Shown here piece after piece: positions 3,311-28,571 of a DNA stretch of 43,605 nt. The stretch's first letter is position 1; every line of letters begins with the position of its first letter. The notes beneath the pieces are model-generated. The model searched no databases. It worked only from the letters and a program-made list of their open reading frames with translations, and was not told the DNA's origin. The position numbers and the translations under genes were made by a program. Origin of the DNA: a virus; the IMG/VR virus record IMGVR_UViG_3300022751_000005, positions 1-43,605 of that record. The stretch is one strand, 5' to 3'.

Positions 3311-3318
3311 TATATTTG
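3311..3318 (+). promoter_or_regulatory. TATATTTG promoter element of RNA element C
   Basis: Perfect TAnnTTTG match 25 bases after the terL stop. It precedes the three-hairpin RNA at 3323-3415. No good TTTG -33 element is seen at the usual 19-21 base distance. Confidence 0.6.
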
Positions 3319-3322
3319 CCCT

Positions 3323-3415
3323 TAACTGATGTGAAGATGCATCATCCCGAATGTATGAGAGATCAATTCAATATTAATTTACCGCTACCGGCTTCATTGT
3401 CGGCAGCGGTTTTTT
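3323..3415 (+). ncRNA. Kissing-loop RNA element C (three hairpins, terminator end)
   Basis: Hairpin 1 is TGATG (3327-3331)/CATCA (3340-3344) with loop TGAAGATG. Hairpin 2 is weak, AATT around CAATATT. Hairpin 3 is ACCGCT (3381-3386)/AGCGGT (3405-3410) with an inner CCG/CGG after one mismatch and loop GCTTCATTGT, followed by a T-run. Loop 1 TGAAG (3332-3336) is complementary to loop 3 CTTCA (3392-3396). The arrangement matches elements A, B and D, though this copy is the weakest. A 30-codon frame from ATG 3337 to TAA 3427-3429, overlapping the portal ATG, also fits here, so a leader peptide is an alternative. Confidence 0.6.
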
Positions 3416-3428
3416 ACTTTGGTAAATA

Positions 3429-23128: not shown

Positions 23129-23556
23129 TGAAGTGGTTATTCAGGATATTTTTAATCATAGCGCTTATCATTTCGATTGGCGCTATTTTTATTAATACGG
23201 ATGTTTGGGATTACATTTACGTATTGGTTCAGGCAAATTGGGAGTTGATCTATCTTGTTGTTGTAATGCTGCTTTTTAAGAGGCTTTATTCAATTGGACT
23301 TATCAAAATATCAAAGTCGGAATATTACGTTTCAGTTGTAGGATTTTACGCTTTAATTTCAAGTGCGGTCGCAAATGTGTTTCACGGACTTTTATTGTAC
23401 TTTGCTAAAACGGAATTCGGCTCAATGACTTGCGAGTATTACGAAAACCTTTGGGGGTATTATTGGAAGTCGATGTTTTGGTACTGGGCAATTTACGGAA
23501 TTGTGTTTTTGATACTGATGATTTCTTTGCTTATTAGTTTGCCGGAAAGGAAATAA
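23128..23556 (+). CDS. Integral membrane protein (142 aa)
   Basis: Four hydrophobic segments are visible: about residues 5-22 (FRIFLIIALIISIGAIFI), 31-48, 65-90 and 118-137 (YGIVFLILMISLLISL). No recognised family. The -33 element TTTG of RNA element A lies within its last codons. It may alter the host membrane or be a superinfection or accessory protein, but nothing in the sequence decides this. Confidence 0.65.
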   Translation: MKWLFRIFLIIALIISIGAIFINTDVWDYIYVLVQANWELIYLVVVMLLFKRLYSIGLIKISKSEYYVSVVGFYALISSAVANVFHGLLLYFAKTEFGSMTCEYYENLWGYYWKSMFWYWAIYGIVFLILMISLLISLPERK

Positions 23557-23568
23557 TGTTTATGTTTG
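23538..23568 (+). promoter_or_regulatory. Bacteroidetes-type promoter of RNA element A
   Basis: TTTG at 23538-23541, a 19-base spacer, then TATGTTTG at 23561-23568. Both elements match the TTTG/TAnnTTTG consensus with normal spacing. This is among the best promoters in the window, and transcription should start at about 23571-23573, the base of hairpin 1. Confidence 0.8.
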
Positions 23569-23570
23569 CG

Positions 23571-23665
23571 TACTGTTTTATCGGCTCGAAACGTCTAACA
23601 GTCAATTATCAAACTATTTAATTTGATAGGGAAAACCCGTAGCATTCGAGTGTTGCGGGTTTTTT
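23571..23665 (+). ncRNA. Kissing-loop RNA element A, before rtcB
   Basis: Hairpin 1: ACTGT (23572-23576)/ACAGT (23598-23602). Hairpin 2: TATCAAA (23607-23613)/TTTGATA (23622-23628). Hairpin 3: AAAACCCG (23632-23639)/CGGGTTTT (23656-23663), ending in a T-run. Loop 1 CTCGAA (23585-23590) is the reverse complement of loop 3 TTCGAG (23645-23650), and a G-U pair can extend it. Element B has the same layout with CTCGACA/TGTCGAG, a compensating change. A strong promoter sits immediately upstream and rtcB starts 20 bases after the terminator. Confidence 0.8.
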
Positions 23666-23684
23666 CGGTTTAATACTTTTTATT

Positions 23685-24899
23685 ATGAAAAATCTAACTG
23701 TGTTTGGTTCTGAAATTATTGACCAAAAATGTATTACACAGATTGAAAATTGTATTGGAGAAAATGACATTGCAGTTTTAACATCCGATGCGCATTATGG
23801 TTACGGACACCCAATTGGAGGGGCAATCGCTTACAAAGACAAAGTTTCTTTGTCAGGTGTAGGTTTTGATATTGCTTGCGGAAACAAAGCTGTTAGAACC
23901 GATATTTTAGCTGACGATATTGACGTTGCAAAAGTGATGGACGAACTTTTCAAAAGGATTTCTTTTGGAGTTGGTCGCCATAATGACGAGCCTGTTGATC
24001 ATGAAGTTTTTGATAAAATTGCAAGCGCTGATTTCTTGCCGCAAAGAAAATTATTACAGTTGGCTAAAAATCAACTTGGAACAGTTGGAAGCGGAAACCA
24101 TTACGTTGATTTATTTCGGGGGAAAGATGGTTATTTGTGGATCGGAAACCATTTTGGCTCACGAGGTTTCGGTCATAAAACAGCAATGGGATTTATAGCG
24201 TTGTCTCAAGGATTAGGATTTGAAGATAAAGCAAACGAGGGCGGAATGGATAAGCCGCCTATTTTATTTGACACGAATACGAACTTAGGACAATCGTACT
24301 TGTCCGCAATGCATTTGGCCGGCGAATACGCTTATGCTGGTCGTGATATGGTAATTTCTAAAGTTCTTGAAATTTTAGACAATCCAACTGTAACTTTTCA
24401 AGTACATAATCATCACAATTTCGCTTGGAAAGAAAATCATTTCGGAAACGATTATTGGGTAGTTAGAAAAGGTTGTACTCCAGCTTTTCCAAATCAGTTA
24501 GGATTTATTGGCGCAAATATGCTCGATAAATCTGTAATAATTGAGGGTGTTGACACTGAGTTAGCGAAAACCACACTTTACTCAACGGTTCACGGCGCTG
24601 GTCGTGTAATGTCAAGAACAGAGGCGGCAGGAAAAAAGAAATGGATTGCTGATGAAAATGGGAAAAAACGACCAACAATCGTAGCAAAGGGAAAGGTTGA
24701 TTTTGATTTGGTTAAAGAAACCATGAAAACACACAAAATCGAACTACGTGGAGCTGGCGCAGATGAAGCGCCGCAATGCTATAAAAAGCTAAATGAAGTT
24801 TTAGGATTTATGGGAGATACTATCAAAGTGTTACATGAATTAGAACCAATTGGAGTAGCAATGGCAGGAAGTGATACATTCGACCCTTACAAAGATTAG
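23685..24899 (+). CDS. rtcB: RNA-splicing/repair ligase RtcB
   Basis: A 404-aa GTP/Mn-dependent RNA ligase that joins RNA 3'-phosphate or 2',3'-cyclic phosphate ends to 5'-OH ends. Family motifs present: SDAHYGYGHPIGGAIAY (34-50), the metal-binding GVGFDIACG (58-66, Asp62 and Cys65), GTVGSGNHYVDL (132-143), a His-rich HNHHNFAWKE (241-250), and the guanylylation HGAGR (303-307) followed by VMSR. No frameshift, normal length. Its substrates could be host-cleaved tRNAs or phage RNAs. It lies between RNA element A and an HNH gene. Function is confident, substrate unknown. Confidence 0.95.
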   Translation: MKNLTVFGSEIIDQKCITQIENCIGENDIAVLTSDAHYGYGHPIGGAIAYKDKVSLSGVGFDIACGNKAVRTDILADDIDVAKVMDELFKRISFGVGRHNDEPVDHEVFDKIASADFLPQRKLLQLAKNQLGTVGSGNHYVDLFRGKDGYLWIGNHFGSRGFGHKTAMGFIALSQGLGFEDKANEGGMDKPPILFDTNTNLGQSYLSAMHLAGEYAYAGRDMVISKVLEILDNPTVTFQVHNHHNFAWKENHFGNDYWVVRKGCTPAFPNQLGFIGANMLDKSVIIEGVDTELAKTTLYSTVHGAGRVMSRTEAAGKKKWIADENGKKRPTIVAKGKVDFDLVKETMKTHKIELRGAGADEAPQCYKKLNEVLGFMGDTIKVLHELEPIGVAMAGSDTFDPYKD

Positions 24900-24905
24900 A
24901 TTATT

Positions 24906-24932
24906 ATCCCGTCCTAACAGTCGGGATTTTTT
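24906..24932 (+). terminator. Rho-independent terminator after rtcB
   Basis: ATCCCG (24906-24911)/CGGGAT (24922-24927) with loop TCCTAACAGT and a following T-run. A promoter element follows 3 bases later. Confidence 0.8.
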
Positions 24933-24935
24933 ATT

Positions 24936-24943
24936 TACATTTG
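24936..24943 (+). promoter_or_regulatory. TACATTTG promoter element
   Basis: Matches TAnnTTTG. It lies just downstream of the rtcB terminator and 18 bases before ATG 24962. Confidence 0.6.
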
Positions 24944-24961
24944 ACGATTAATTTAATACTT

Positions 24962-25354
24962 ATGAAAAAACAGGATAGGCAATTAATTCACGATAAATTT
25001 GGCGGCAAATGTGCTTATTGCGGTACGGATCTTCTAAAAGGTTGGCACGTTGATGAAATTGAACCAGTTAGACGAAATTTTGTATATGATAAATCAAAAG
25101 GCAGTCATAAATCAGACGGCACTTGTATGCATCCTGAAAGGTTTCACATCGATAATCAAAATCCGTCTTGCGCAAGCTGTAATATAAATAAGCACTCAAT
25201 GTCCTTAGAAGAATTCAGGAAGCAGATTTCAGGATTTATGAACCACTTAAACAACATCAGTACTCAATATAAAATAGCAAAACGCTACGGTCTTGTTTCA
25301 GAAACGAATATTGAGGTTAAATTTTATTTTGAAACTTTAAATAACAACCAATGA
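24962..25354 (+). CDS. HNH endonuclease
   Basis: A 130-aa HNH nuclease. Zinc ligands CAYC (17-20) and CASC (70-73) frame the fold. His29 in WHVDEIEPV and Asn67/His78 in NQNPSCASCNINKHSM supply the catalytic signature, followed by SLEEFR as in many HNH proteins. The frame opens upstream at TTG 24941, inside the promoter, so ATG 24962 is preferred. It overlaps the metalloprotease gene by 4 bases. It may be a free-standing homing-type nuclease or serve in DNA processing. It is not next to the terminase genes, where packaging-linked HNH genes usually are. Confidence 0.85.
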   Translation: MKKQDRQLIHDKFGGKCAYCGTDLLKGWHVDEIEPVRRNFVYDKSKGSHKSDGTCMHPERFHIDNQNPSCASCNINKHSMSLEEFRKQISGFMNHLNNISTQYKIAKRYGLVSETNIEVKFYFETLNNNQ

Positions 25355-27129
25355 AAAAACTACTAATTATCCTACTTTTCCCAATCCTAACATTCGCCCA
25401 ATGGACAAAACAACAATCCAAAACAGGCGAGCCTATTCACAACTTGAACAAAAAAACGTTCACAAAACAACTGAACGCTAAAAAAGCGACCTTTCCAGAC
25501 GCCGATGGAAACTTATCTCAGTACGCACTTATCGAAGATTTTAATTTTGCTGATAAAAAAATAGCACAGAAATACGGACTAAGGAGTTTTCACGGTTTTG
25601 ATAAAGACGGACGGTCGATTAGCATAGCAGTTTCAAAAGAAGGTGTTGAGGCAACAATTACAGATTCGTTGCAAACTTTTGTACGTCCAACTGTTAATGG
25701 TTATAAAATAGGGCGTGTTGAAAGCAAAAAGGAGTTTTCCTGCGATGTTGACGAAAGGCAAGTTATATCTGATTTTACGGATAGAGCTAAAGCAAATCAA
25801 AAGGCGGCGGTTGTTAGAGGTGATATAACCGTTATCCGAATGGCAATAGCTATCAATTTCGAAGGTATGAAGCAAATCGGTTTAACACAGGCGAAAGGAC
25901 TTGCGTACTTGAACACATTAATGACTGCCGTAAACAAGCAATTAAGAGCCAATAACGGTGTAATTGGTCAATTGGTAGTCGGGAATGAAAAGCTGCTTTG
26001 TATTAACTCTGACGATCCATTTACGACACAAGACAAATGGACAGTACAAAGCCAGGTATTTATTGACAAAGTAATCGGTTCGGAAAATTACGACCTCGGA
26101 CATGTTCTGACTATTGGGGTTGGCGGGAATGCAGGCGGTATCGGAACGGTTACAAATCCAACTTTGAAAGGCTCGGCTTATTCAGCAACGCCAAATATGA
26201 CCGATCCGTATTTCTTTACCGATGTTGTTGTCCACGAAATTGGTCACCAATTAGGCGCAACCCACACGTTCAGTTACAAAGGTGTTGGGGTGGCGAATAT
26301 GGAATCTGGCAGCGGATGCACGGCTATGAGTTACGCAGGAATTGCCGGAGCAAATTATAATTTACAATCACATTCCTATCCGTTTTTTCACGGGCAATCT
26401 ATTAACCAGATTAACCAAACTTTGGGATTGAAAACCTCTTTAGGAAGCATCAATACAGGGAATCGCAACCCGATTATTACAAGCTCTATTGATAGAGTTG
26501 TTGAGTTCGACACGCCTTTTTCATTGTCGGCAATCGCAACTGATCCGGATGGTGACGAATTATATTATCAATGGGACGAAATCGATCCTACGGTTATCGC
26601 TTACACTATTCCAAAACCTACAAACTTTTCCGGCTCAATGTTCGCAAGCGTGTTGCCTTCAAAGCTGAATTACCGGAACTTTTATCTGCGTGACAAATGG
26701 AACGTTTACCCAACAATTTCACGGGTCTGTAATTTTATGCTTACAGTAACGGACAGCAAAGGCGGGCGGGCGCAACAAAAAGTAAAAGTTACATTTGTAC
26801 CGCCAGTTCCAAAAGTTAGCAATGCGCCTATTTTATCATACTTTCCCGGAACGCTTACGAAAACCAGCGTAAAACTGCAATGGAGTATCCCGGTTAATTT
26901 TTCAACCGTTGGATATAGTTTGTACAAAAATCCTGATGTTGATGATACCTCTTTAAAAGGCAATGAAAAAGAAAACTATCAGGCTAGTACTACAAACACA
27001 TTCATAACTGTAACATTCAATGCAGCCGACAAGCTCAAAGGTAGCGTTATATACGTTGTGAAAGGGAAAAATTCAGACGGTTGGCGAACTGAAAAAAGTA
27101 ATAGTTTGTTAGTTGATATTCCGAAATAA
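25351..27129 (+). CDS. Secreted zinc metalloprotease (metzincin, reprolysin-like)
   Basis: A 592-aa exported protease. Signal peptide at 1-17 (MKKLLIILLFPILTFAQ). The catalytic zinc site HEIGHQLGATH is at 295-305, with the Met-turn in GCTAMSYAG (Met326), which places it among metzincins of M12B type. Residues about 370-480 (RVVEFDTPFSLSAIATDPDG) look like a cadherin/PKD-like domain. Residues about 490-592 look like a fibronectin III domain (SNAPILSYFPGTLTKTSVKL). The secretion-type C-terminal sorting domain common in host relatives is not evident. Such a protein in a phage genome is unusual; it is either cargo or a virion or lysis-aiding enzyme. Confidence 0.88.
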   Translation: MKKLLIILLFPILTFAQWTKQQSKTGEPIHNLNKKTFTKQLNAKKATFPDADGNLSQYALIEDFNFADKKIAQKYGLRSFHGFDKDGRSISIAVSKEGVEATITDSLQTFVRPTVNGYKIGRVESKKEFSCDVDERQVISDFTDRAKANQKAAVVRGDITVIRMAIAINFEGMKQIGLTQAKGLAYLNTLMTAVNKQLRANNGVIGQLVVGNEKLLCINSDDPFTTQDKWTVQSQVFIDKVIGSENYDLGHVLTIGVGGNAGGIGTVTNPTLKGSAYSATPNMTDPYFFTDVVVHEIGHQLGATHTFSYKGVGVANMESGSGCTAMSYAGIAGANYNLQSHSYPFFHGQSINQINQTLGLKTSLGSINTGNRNPIITSSIDRVVEFDTPFSLSAIATDPDGDELYYQWDEIDPTVIAYTIPKPTNFSGSMFASVLPSKLNYRNFYLRDKWNVYPTISRVCNFMLTVTDSKGGRAQQKVKVTFVPPVPKVSNAPILSYFPGTLTKTSVKLQWSIPVNFSTVGYSLYKNPDVDDTSLKGNEKENYQASTTNTFITVTFNAADKLKGSVIYVVKGKNSDGWRTEKSNSLLVDIPK

Positions 27130-27141
27130 TTTGTATGTTTG
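27112..27141 (+). promoter_or_regulatory. Promoter of RNA element B
   Basis: TATGTTTG at 27134-27141 is a perfect -7 match, identical to that of element A. The -33 element is weaker: GTTG at 27112-27115, 18 bases upstream. Confidence 0.7.
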
Positions 27142-27144
27142 CGA

Positions 27145-27239
27145 TACCGTTTGGCTCGACACTCACGGTTAAAATTAGATAATTATACACTCTAATTGGA
27201 TAAAAGGCGTAGTTTCTGTCGAGGATTCTGCGCCTTTTT
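27145..27239 (+). ncRNA. Kissing-loop RNA element B, before the RlmN/Cfr-like gene
   Basis: Hairpin 1: ACCGT (27146-27150)/ACGGT (27165-27169). Hairpin 2: AATTAGA (27173-27179)/TCTAATT (27191-27197). Hairpin 3: AAAAGGCGTAG (27202-27212)/CTGCGCCTTTT (27228-27238), then a T-run. Loop 1 CTCGACA (27155-27161) pairs fully with loop 3 TGTCGAG (27217-27223). It is clearly related to element A (shared GGCTCGA in loop 1, CGTAG in hairpin 3), but both stems and the kissing pair differ by compensating changes. The next gene starts 17 bases downstream. Confidence 0.8.
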
Positions 27240-27256
27240 CTATTAAATCACTTATC

Positions 27257-28192
27257 ATGTTTGAAAATGTAAAAACAATTCAAAGTTCAGATGAAAACGT
27301 AATGAAATTTGTTTTCGAAAAAAGTAACGCAGTAGCTGAAGCTGTATTGTACAAATACCCTACTTATGAGGATAGGACAGTGATTTGTTGTTCTACCCAA
27401 TCCGGTTGTCCTGTTGGTTGTAGATTTTGCGGGGCTGGGGATTATTTCGTACGAAGTTTAAAAGCCGAAGAAATTGTTTATCAGGTAGATCATTGCCTTT
27501 CGAGTCAAAATATTGACGCATCAAAAATTGAAAGGTTTCAAATTATGGTTATGTCTATGGGTGAACCTCTTTTAAATTTCAAGGAACTAGAAAAAGCTTT
27601 CGAAATACTTTATGAGAAGTACCCAAAAGCAAGACTACTTATTAGCTCGATTGGACCAAAAGTAAACTATGAGCCTATTATTGATATGTGCGAACGAATT
27701 CCTACTGTAGGACTGCAATTTTCAGTTCACGAAAGCACAGATGAAGCCAGGAACGAACTTATTCCTTTTGCGAATAAACTTACATTAAAAGAACTTTCAG
27801 AAGTGGGAGAGGTCTTTTTAGCCAGAACGGGGCGAAAACCTTTTTTCAATTATTGTGCTCACGAAAACAATTCAAGCGAATTAGACGCTTTAAGATTAGC
27901 CAACATTTTCAGTCCTGATGTTTTTGAGGCAACTATTTCAGTAGTCTGCGAAAGAGAGGAATCAATCGCTGCGGCAAACATCAGACAGAGAGAATTAGCG
28001 TCAAAATTTGAAGACCACTTAAAAAAGCGTTGGTTTTCTACAAGAATGTTCGACCCTGCTGGACAAGATGATATTGGCGGTGGTTGTGGTCAATTATGGT
28101 TCGTGCAAAATTGGATGAAACAAAATCCGGACATGGCTAAAAAATCAGTTGGTTTTGGAATGGAAGTAGTTCATGCGCCAACTTTAGATTAA
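27257..28192 (+). CDS. Radical-SAM RNA methyltransferase of the RlmN/Cfr family
   Basis: A 311-aa radical-SAM enzyme. The cluster motif CPVGCRFC (Cys51, 55, 58) is preceded at the RlmN-specific distance by Cys44 in CCSTQSGC. A second catalytic cysteine, Cys277, lies in GGGCGQL, matching the ACGQL motif of RlmN. MSMGEPLLN (near 100-108) is also diagnostic. RlmN and Cfr methylate C2 or C8 of adenosine in 23S rRNA, and RlmN also methylates tRNA. This protein is shorter than the cellular enzymes (about 350-385 aa), lacking most of the N-terminal accessory domain, so its RNA target may differ. It is preceded by RNA element B and followed by tRNA genes. Confidence 0.9.
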   Translation: MFENVKTIQSSDENVMKFVFEKSNAVAEAVLYKYPTYEDRTVICCSTQSGCPVGCRFCGAGDYFVRSLKAEEIVYQVDHCLSSQNIDASKIERFQIMVMSMGEPLLNFKELEKAFEILYEKYPKARLLISSIGPKVNYEPIIDMCERIPTVGLQFSVHESTDEARNELIPFANKLTLKELSEVGEVFLARTGRKPFFNYCAHENNSSELDALRLANIFSPDVFEATISVVCEREESIAAANIRQRELASKFEDHLKKRWFSTRMFDPAGQDDIGGGCGQLWFVQNWMKQNPDMAKKSVGFGMEVVHAPTLD

Positions 28193-28228
28193 ATTCCCTA
28201 CATTTACACTTTCATAATAAATATTTTT

Positions 28229-28258
28229 AACCTCGCTGTAAAAAGTGAGGTTTTTTTT
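28229..28258 (+). terminator. Rho-independent terminator
   Basis: AACCTC (28229-28234)/GAGGTT (28247-28252) around a 12-base loop, followed by a long T-run. It closes the radical-SAM unit. Confidence 0.8.
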
Positions 28259-28455: not shown

Positions 28456-28457
28456 AA

Positions 28458-28568
28458 TTGTCGTTGGCGGAGTGGTAAACGCTATTCATAGTGAGAGTGA
28501 GCCGGACAAACAACCGGAATACCATAAGTTTCACGCTACACCCAAAGGTTCGATTCCTTTACGACAAT
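28458..28568 (+). tRNA. Atypical tRNA-like RNA with expanded central region (111 nt)
   Basis: Both ends are tRNA-like. The acceptor TTGTCGT (28458-28464) pairs perfectly with ACGACAA (28561-28567), and flanking bases can extend it. The D arm has GCG/CGC with a GAGTGGTAAA loop, and the T arm has AAAGG/CCTTT with loop TTCGATT. Between D and T arms there are about 61 nt instead of the usual 23-35. TATTC (28483-28487) can pair with GAATA, leaving a 29-nt loop, while TAGTGA (28488-28493) can pair with TCAC-g-CTA downstream, which together would form a pseudoknot. No 7-nt anticodon loop can be assigned with confidence. It has its own promoter and terminator. Confidence 0.6.
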
Positions 28569-28571
28569 TAA

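Follow-up and report, generated by a model that had tools for sequence, protein, structure and literature searches.

A kissing-loop terminator leader ahead of rtcB and other exchangeable genes in flavobacterial phages

In the viral record IMGVR_UViG_3300022751_000005 (43,605 nt; hereafter the window, meaning the whole stretch of DNA that was analysed), a short structured RNA, element A (23571-23685), lies directly in front of rtcB, a gene for an RNA ligase, which raises the question of whether this RNA is tied to RtcB itself or belongs to a more general arrangement ahead of whichever gene happens to follow. Phages that infect flavobacteria abound in lakes and seas, and no description of regulatory leader RNAs in these phages was found in the open-access papers searched.

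Element A was confirmed as a real structured element (Table 1). Its predicted promoter consists of TTTG (23538-23541), a 19-nt spacer, and TATGTTTG (23561-23568), and is well matched to the Bacteroidota consensus of a TAnnTTTG −7 box with TTG or TTTG about 19-20 nt upstream. The RNA of about 95 bases folds at −33.9 kcal/mol (z = −4.8), a value equalled by none of 200 shuffles. Stem 1 pairs ACTGTT (23572-23577) with AACAGT (23597-23602), the arms of stem 2 lie at 23607-23613 and 23622-23628, and the terminator arms lie at about 23632-23644 and 23651-23665, the U-run occupying 23660-23665. The apical loop of this terminator, TTCGAG (23645-23650), is complementary to the CTCGAA of loop 1. The terminator is plain in the fold, though absent from the output of a generic terminator scan. 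The rtcB ATG stands 19 nt past the U-run, and no second consensus promoter was found by sequence between terminator and ATG. Promoter and fold bear out the claims of a first-pass annotation that a structured RNA from its own promoter precedes rtcB and that its terminator lies about 20 bases ahead of the rtcB start; the lack of a second consensus promoter supports its expectation that rtcB should need terminator read-through. Rfam 15 gave no matches at gathering score over the window stretch, and its weak matches to element A were far below the cut-offs.

A similarity search of the window with element A uncovered a second copy, element B, which opens with the match at 27123-27143, folds at −30 kcal/mol (z = −3.7), and has a terminator ending 17 nt ahead of a radical SAM gene. 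The loop words of the two elements (CTCGAA/TTCGAG in A versus CTCGACA/TGTCGAG in B) already differ by a compensated change. Element B occupies the same place in seven phages as three discrete alleles; from one to another, the kissing words and the stems of hairpin 1 and of the terminator are replaced, while pairing and the flanking letters are retained. Because these homologues were reached through similarity or through a flank pattern that ignores the loops, their loop complementarity is independent evidence for the contact. The allele is unlinked to the gene: different alleles precede related genes in G024 and G023, and the same allele is followed by different genes in G001 versus G023 and in G025 versus G028. 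As to the surrounding genes, the radical SAM protein of the window shares 63% identity with the product of a Stenotrophomonas phage gene, and a reprolysin-like metallopeptidase gene (25351-27129) lies between the two elements.

Table 1 Features of elements A and B in the window, element B alleles, and isolate phages carrying related elements
Feature	Position or phages	Strand	Basis or remark
Element A, Bacteroidota-type promoter	23538..23568	+	by reading; consensus match only
Element A, hairpin 1, loop 1 with kissing word CTCGAA (23585-23590)	23572..23602	+	fold; loop-word covariation in family
Element A, hairpin 2, small, A/U-rich, in linker	23607..23628	+	fold
Element A, intrinsic terminator (hairpin 3) and U-run	23632..23665	+	fold; reading
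rtcB, behind element A in this phage only	23685..24899	+	PF01139, E 1.6e-58; phrog_1075
Terminator-promoter linker closing exchangeable slot A	24899..24967	+	91-100% identical in G001/G002, 95% in G028
Element B, promoter −7 box TATGTTTG, at end of upstream metallopeptidase gene	27134..27141	+	reading
Element B, hairpin 1, kissing word CTCGACA (27155-27161)	27146..27169	+	fold; allele comparison
Element B, hairpin 2, AATTAGA/TCTAATT	27173..27197	+	fold; compensatory changes in G002
Element B, terminator, loop word TGTCGAG (27217-27223), U-run 27235-27239	27202..27239	+	fold; allele comparison
RlmN/Cfr-like radical SAM gene, behind element B in this phage only	27257..28192	+	PF04055; best NCBIfam match RlmN, far below cut-off
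Element B allele CTCGACA/TGTCGAG	window, G002, G024		
Element B allele ACGGCTAC/GTAGCCGT	G001, G023		
Element B allele TCGCTAC/GTAGCGA	G025, G028		
Element in isolate Harreka_1	30070		
Element in isolate Cellulophaga phi19:1	10353		
Element in isolate Cellulophaga phi10:1	10239		
Elements in isolate Flavobacterium hattifnatt9-1	13299, 14334		
Elements in isolate Flavobacterium snusmum6-1	13649, 14684		
Element in isolate FCL-2	record about 37475		
Element in isolate Polaribacter P12002L	record about 34477	−	

Relatives of the window were gathered from IMG/VR by element-pattern scans and a terminase scan. At 77% identity, its terminase resembles that of a record taken to be the Olleya phage Harreka_1, so the window very probably comes from a relative of Harrekavirus that infects flavobacteria. 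Element A is present in six phages (the window, G001, G002, G023, G024, and G025), where it precedes different genes: rtcB in the window, one for a GIY-YIG protein in G001, G023, and G024, and those for two different small proteins in G002 and G025. The 97-nt element A RNA is identical in the window and G002, where it precedes different genes and where the promoter a few bases upstream differs, and the conserved block extends beyond the U-run toward the start codon. Other aligned DNA of these two phages is mostly about 70-85% identical, with some short segments and the terminase (99%) near-identical; the latter point to active recombination, and part of the identity of element A may stem from recent transfer. 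In G028, slot A holds a promoter and yet another gene without element A, the match to the window (91%) ending at 23568, the final base of the promoter box (in G028, TAGGTTTG), and no terminator was found ahead of the gene. Because slot, promoter, and gene occur there without the element, the comparison indicates that element A is a removable leader between the promoter and an exchangeable gene. A possible H-type pseudoknot (TTAGC with GCTAA, and GCC with GGC) was observed in the short slot A leader of G028, on the reverse strand at about 3340-3420 of the reversed locus (L418).

These comparisons bear on the first half of our question. The special link to rtcB proposed by the first-pass annotation finds no support, given the GIY-YIG or small genes that stand behind element A elsewhere, rtcB following it in one of the six phages that carry it, and rtcB genes 86-92% identical to that of the window have no element A ahead of them in two other phages (L002 and L003). 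That RtcB uses the RNA as a substrate or decoy is unlikely because element A precedes other genes and close relatives of rtcB lack it; control specific to RtcB, with the RNA as substrate, decoy, or sensor, has the adjacency of the two in this window in its favor, and five phages with a different gene and the element-free relatives of rtcB against it, and we regard it as barely credible. Upstream of the closest relative, the rtcB of L003 (92%), a different long hairpin was seen (GTGCTATACGAAGGAGGCG ... CGCCTCTTTTGTATAGCAC).

The second half of the question was addressed with a descriptor comprising the promoter box, the 5′ hairpin, the terminator, and loop complementarity of at least 6 nt, with matches counted at scores of at least 33. 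The clade records (721 kb) yielded 22 matches versus 0, 1, and 3 in three shuffles, and the isolate phages (642 kb) yielded 10 versus 1, 1, and 2; a Bacteroidota chromosome (640 kb) yielded five, none of them plausible, versus 2, 1, and 2, and unrelated loci (2.5 Mb) yielded two versus 0, 4, and 4. Some of the matches are not real: several with scores below 33 fall in coding DNA, and some above 33 (e.g., in L400 and L478) look like chance and were excluded. The isolates with elements are given in Table 1; no plausible match at a score of at least 33 was found in 11b, 6H, phi38:1, phi39:1, phi18:1, Leeuwenhoekiella phage Arctus_1, or Bacteroides B40-8. The 14334 element of hattifnatt9-1 and the 14684 element of snusmum6-1 are about 95% identical (mean column identity of the alignment), and their kissing helices differ by two compensatory changes, from GTGAGACG/CGTCTCAC to GTGGAACG/CGTTCCAC. 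A nucleotide search of phage records with element A returned chance-level matches only, and the first pattern applied to viral contigs gave listed matches that were mostly chance, yet also gave L154 and L156; a pattern scan of genome contigs produced 120 stretches and no plausible members after filtering, and a pattern for the B linker matched once in 395 Bacteroidia genomes versus three times for the reversed-pattern control, giving no sign of it in hosts.

An unbiased set of leaders was also assembled by promoter, terminator, and following ATG with the loops ignored, giving 46 distinct candidates. A self-match of at least 7 nt between the first 38 nt and the candidate's own terminator loop was present in 20 of the 46, compared with 0.60 on average and at most 3 across 200 permutations of partners; identical terminator loops were collapsed for this test, by which relatedness is reduced and some of it remains. 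Membership in the family was judged by whether loop 1 and the terminator loop covary so as to stay complementary, which they were found to do, and the loop 1/loop 3 contact that the first-pass annotation had read in element A is upheld by covariation in homologues and by this test, which does not select on loops. Loop pairs were compared by reading, since MAFFT misaligned A and B in loop 1; the alleles share too little sequence for a covariance model, in which a kissing helix is in any case not representable. A family of kissing-loop terminator leaders in flavobacterial phages is well supported by these comparisons and looks general-purpose, serving unrelated genes. It looks undescribed, going by Rfam 15 and the open-access papers searched, which covered phage kissing terminators, Flavobacterium phage transcription, and structured RNAs of Bacteroidetes and did not describe it.

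On reading, loop 1 typically consists of about 7 nt and up to two additional bases, frequently A; the linker, rich in A and U, holds a further hairpin in A, B, and certain other members; and the usual terminator is built of an outer stem, a purine-rich internal loop (e.g., UGAGU/GAAAG, in which G-A pairs are often possible), and an inner stem topped by the kissing loop. As duplexes, the kissing words range from −5.7 to −12.5 kcal/mol, and element A, itself highly conserved, has the weakest kiss, with 6 Watson-Crick pairs at −5.7 kcal/mol. The words are mostly orthogonal within each genome tested, although CTCGA is common to A and B1, which could cross-pair. Every plausible member has a same-strand ATG 7-46 nt past the terminator stem, and no second consensus promoter was found between terminator and ATG in family members; a TTG at similar spacing upstream of the −7 box is present in element B and in several, not all, members. 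The downstream genes are functionally unrelated: besides rtcB and the RlmN-like gene, they include those for a Dam methylase, a GIY-YIG protein, three NUMOD4/HNH endonucleases, a helix-turn-helix protein, DUF6291/DUF7833 proteins, and many unknowns. Comparison among members shows a common architecture, covarying loop pairs, a position before an ATG, and independence from gene identity. Five members (L380, L384, L406, L408 [the 14334 element], and L465) have 42-46 nt between terminator and ATG with a common motif like AATAGTTnnnGGTAATCTTnAAACC, and their small downstream proteins look related.

Element A is probably a member of a cis-acting family of kissing-loop leaders that attenuate exchangeable accessory genes, with kissing tuning read-through. 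Transcription would start from a host-type promoter close to the short 5′ hairpin and continue through the A/U-rich linker, with or without its small hairpin, into the intrinsic terminator, whose apical loop offers 6-9 nt that match the first hairpin's loop by complementarity and allow the ends of the leader to clasp. The majority of transcripts would stop at the terminator, leaving a compact RNA about 85-105 nt long; the accessory gene, here rtcB, would be expressed solely from transcripts passing it. The sequence of promoter, structured leader, terminator, and start codon without a further promoter is the layout of an attenuator leader, as far as the letters can tell. The kissing helix could form ahead of synthesis of the terminator 3′ arm and in this way tune read-through; when the 3′ arm was blocked in folding, the kissing words formed an ordinary long-range helix in most members, and together these points suggest that the contact is placed to influence terminator formation. 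In the same folds, the terminator 5′ arm, with which an antiterminator of the pT181 type would pair, paired partly and inconsistently and the loop words dominated; no alternative antiterminator fold was evident. Kissing helix and terminator hairpin are not mutually exclusive and can coexist; the contact alone therefore does not explain a switch of the kind that the first-pass annotation had placed in loop 1. Attenuation, the direction in which kissing acts, and any regulatory signal are what we infer. Against the attenuator reading we count the compatibility of kissing with the terminator, the want of an evident antiterminator fold or of a recognised conserved ligand or protein site, and the strong conservation and weak kiss of element A itself; active recombination could explain part of the conservation.

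The leader could instead be the product, a stable trans-acting small RNA of about 95 nt clasped end to end, the gene being a passenger expressed by incidental read-through. Its own promoter and terminator would suit such an RNA, as would the 97 nt of element A unchanged in the window and G002 before different genes, but the same-strand ATG within 7-46 nt in all plausible members and the continuation of the conserved A block past the U-run toward the start codon do not, and with both loops mutually engaged and their letters unconserved no common target sequence is evident; we consider this reading unlikely. We find it similarly unlikely that the leader is a promoter-terminator insulator that closes the upstream transcript and sets a low constitutive level of the accessory gene, kissing only stabilising the terminator or protecting the RNA. 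Use independent of the gene, a terminator directly ahead of it, and conserved linkers at both ends of slot A agree with this reading, which is the attenuator model minus regulation, but it leaves unexplained why loop pairing is kept through full replacement of the loop words, unless termination needs the pairing.

Variable genes do sit between conserved blocks, as would be expected if element A and the linker at 24899-24967 were homology arms for gene swapping and RNA structure were incidental, but selection for shared sequence cannot yield covarying pairs, and the B alleles differ in sequence and keep their structure, so that this is a highly improbable account. A ligand-sensing riboswitch with a kissing-loop expression platform is also very unlikely: a leader with a terminator and a loop-loop contact recalls cobalamin riboswitches (PMC10907184), and by reading many members have a purine-rich internal loop below the kissing loop, but stems and loops are freely replaced around no invariant aptamer, the downstream genes have no common function, and Rfam gave no match at gathering score. 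The changeable kissing words might form a self/non-self code, in which the terminated leader RNA pairs in trans with a nascent leader of the same allele, from a co-infecting or superinfecting phage or the phage's own replicas, enforcing or relieving termination. The discreteness of the alleles, their independence of the gene, and the mostly orthogonal words found in any one genome fit this code and do not require it, and we consider it quite improbable; were it true, loop-allele diversification would set compatibility groups, like loop changes in plasmid copy-control RNAs. A type III toxin-antitoxin system was considered separately and rejected: neither element contains a tandem repeat array on reading, and no ToxN-type Pfam match was obtained among the 20 downstream proteins scanned in addition to the products of rtcB and the radical SAM gene.

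Several known systems resemble these leaders in part. The guanidine-II (mini-ykkC) riboswitch likewise has two hairpins that touch by their loops, which are conserved ACGR tetraloops, whereas the loops here have about 7-9 nt and diverge with covariation. In ColE1 RNAI/II copy control and the P4/P1 immunity RNAs, diversifying loop words, as seen here, set the specificity of target pairing in trans, and the P4 CI RNA acts via transcription termination; the present leaders, in contrast, show self-complementarity only. The c4 RNA is RF01695 (PMC2864571), for which the window stretch has no match at gathering score. In the pT181 attenuator, termination is decided by a kissing contact to an antisense RNA, and interior loops are important (PMC4878617). 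Shared with it are a 5′ sensing hairpin, an intrinsic terminator before the gene, interior loops below the kissing loops, and kissing loops whose specificity can be altered to give orthogonal variants (PMC4878617), but its partner is an antisense RNA in trans, whereas here the partner is the terminator loop of the same RNA, and an opposite-strand TAnnTTTG, the mark of an antisense consensus promoter, occurs in only one of 17 elements and is absent in 16, other promoter types being possible. The L5-L13 contact of cobalamin riboswitches is also an intramolecular loop-loop helix from an upstream hairpin to the hairpin of the expression platform (PMC10907184); there a ligand-binding core drives docking, hiding the ribosome-binding site in one example (PMC10907184), whereas the present leaders have no conserved core, a transcription terminator, and unrelated genes behind them.

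A recurring leader that ties its 5′ hairpin to the terminator loop, maintains this contact while the sequence turns over completely, and stands before interchangeable genes would represent an attenuator design not yet described. The family would offer a handle for spotting accessory genes in flavobacterial phages, as well as orthogonal kissing loops of natural origin, and since isolated phages carry the leaders, termination, read-through, and possible action in trans are directly testable.

Three other features of the window deserve mention. A second leader type at 3311-3428 has a TAnnTTTG box, a hairpin with the loop TGAAGNYG, and a terminator before a structural gene; this loop is near-invariant in the window and eight related sequences, no such leader occurs in 640 kb of a Bacteroidota chromosome, and a small ORF appears to cross the terminator. 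A short promoter-plus-terminator stretch at 28186-28258 is 97% conserved in G001 and partly in G028. Between two tRNA-Met genes lies a tRNA-like gene (28457-28569), which ARAGORN calls as tRNA-Thr(agt) with a 22-nt intron in the anticodon loop when introns are allowed and misses without that option; this gene, possibly a phage tRNA that carries an intron in a genome also encoding an RNA ligase, is 97% conserved in G028, where slot A has no rtcB.
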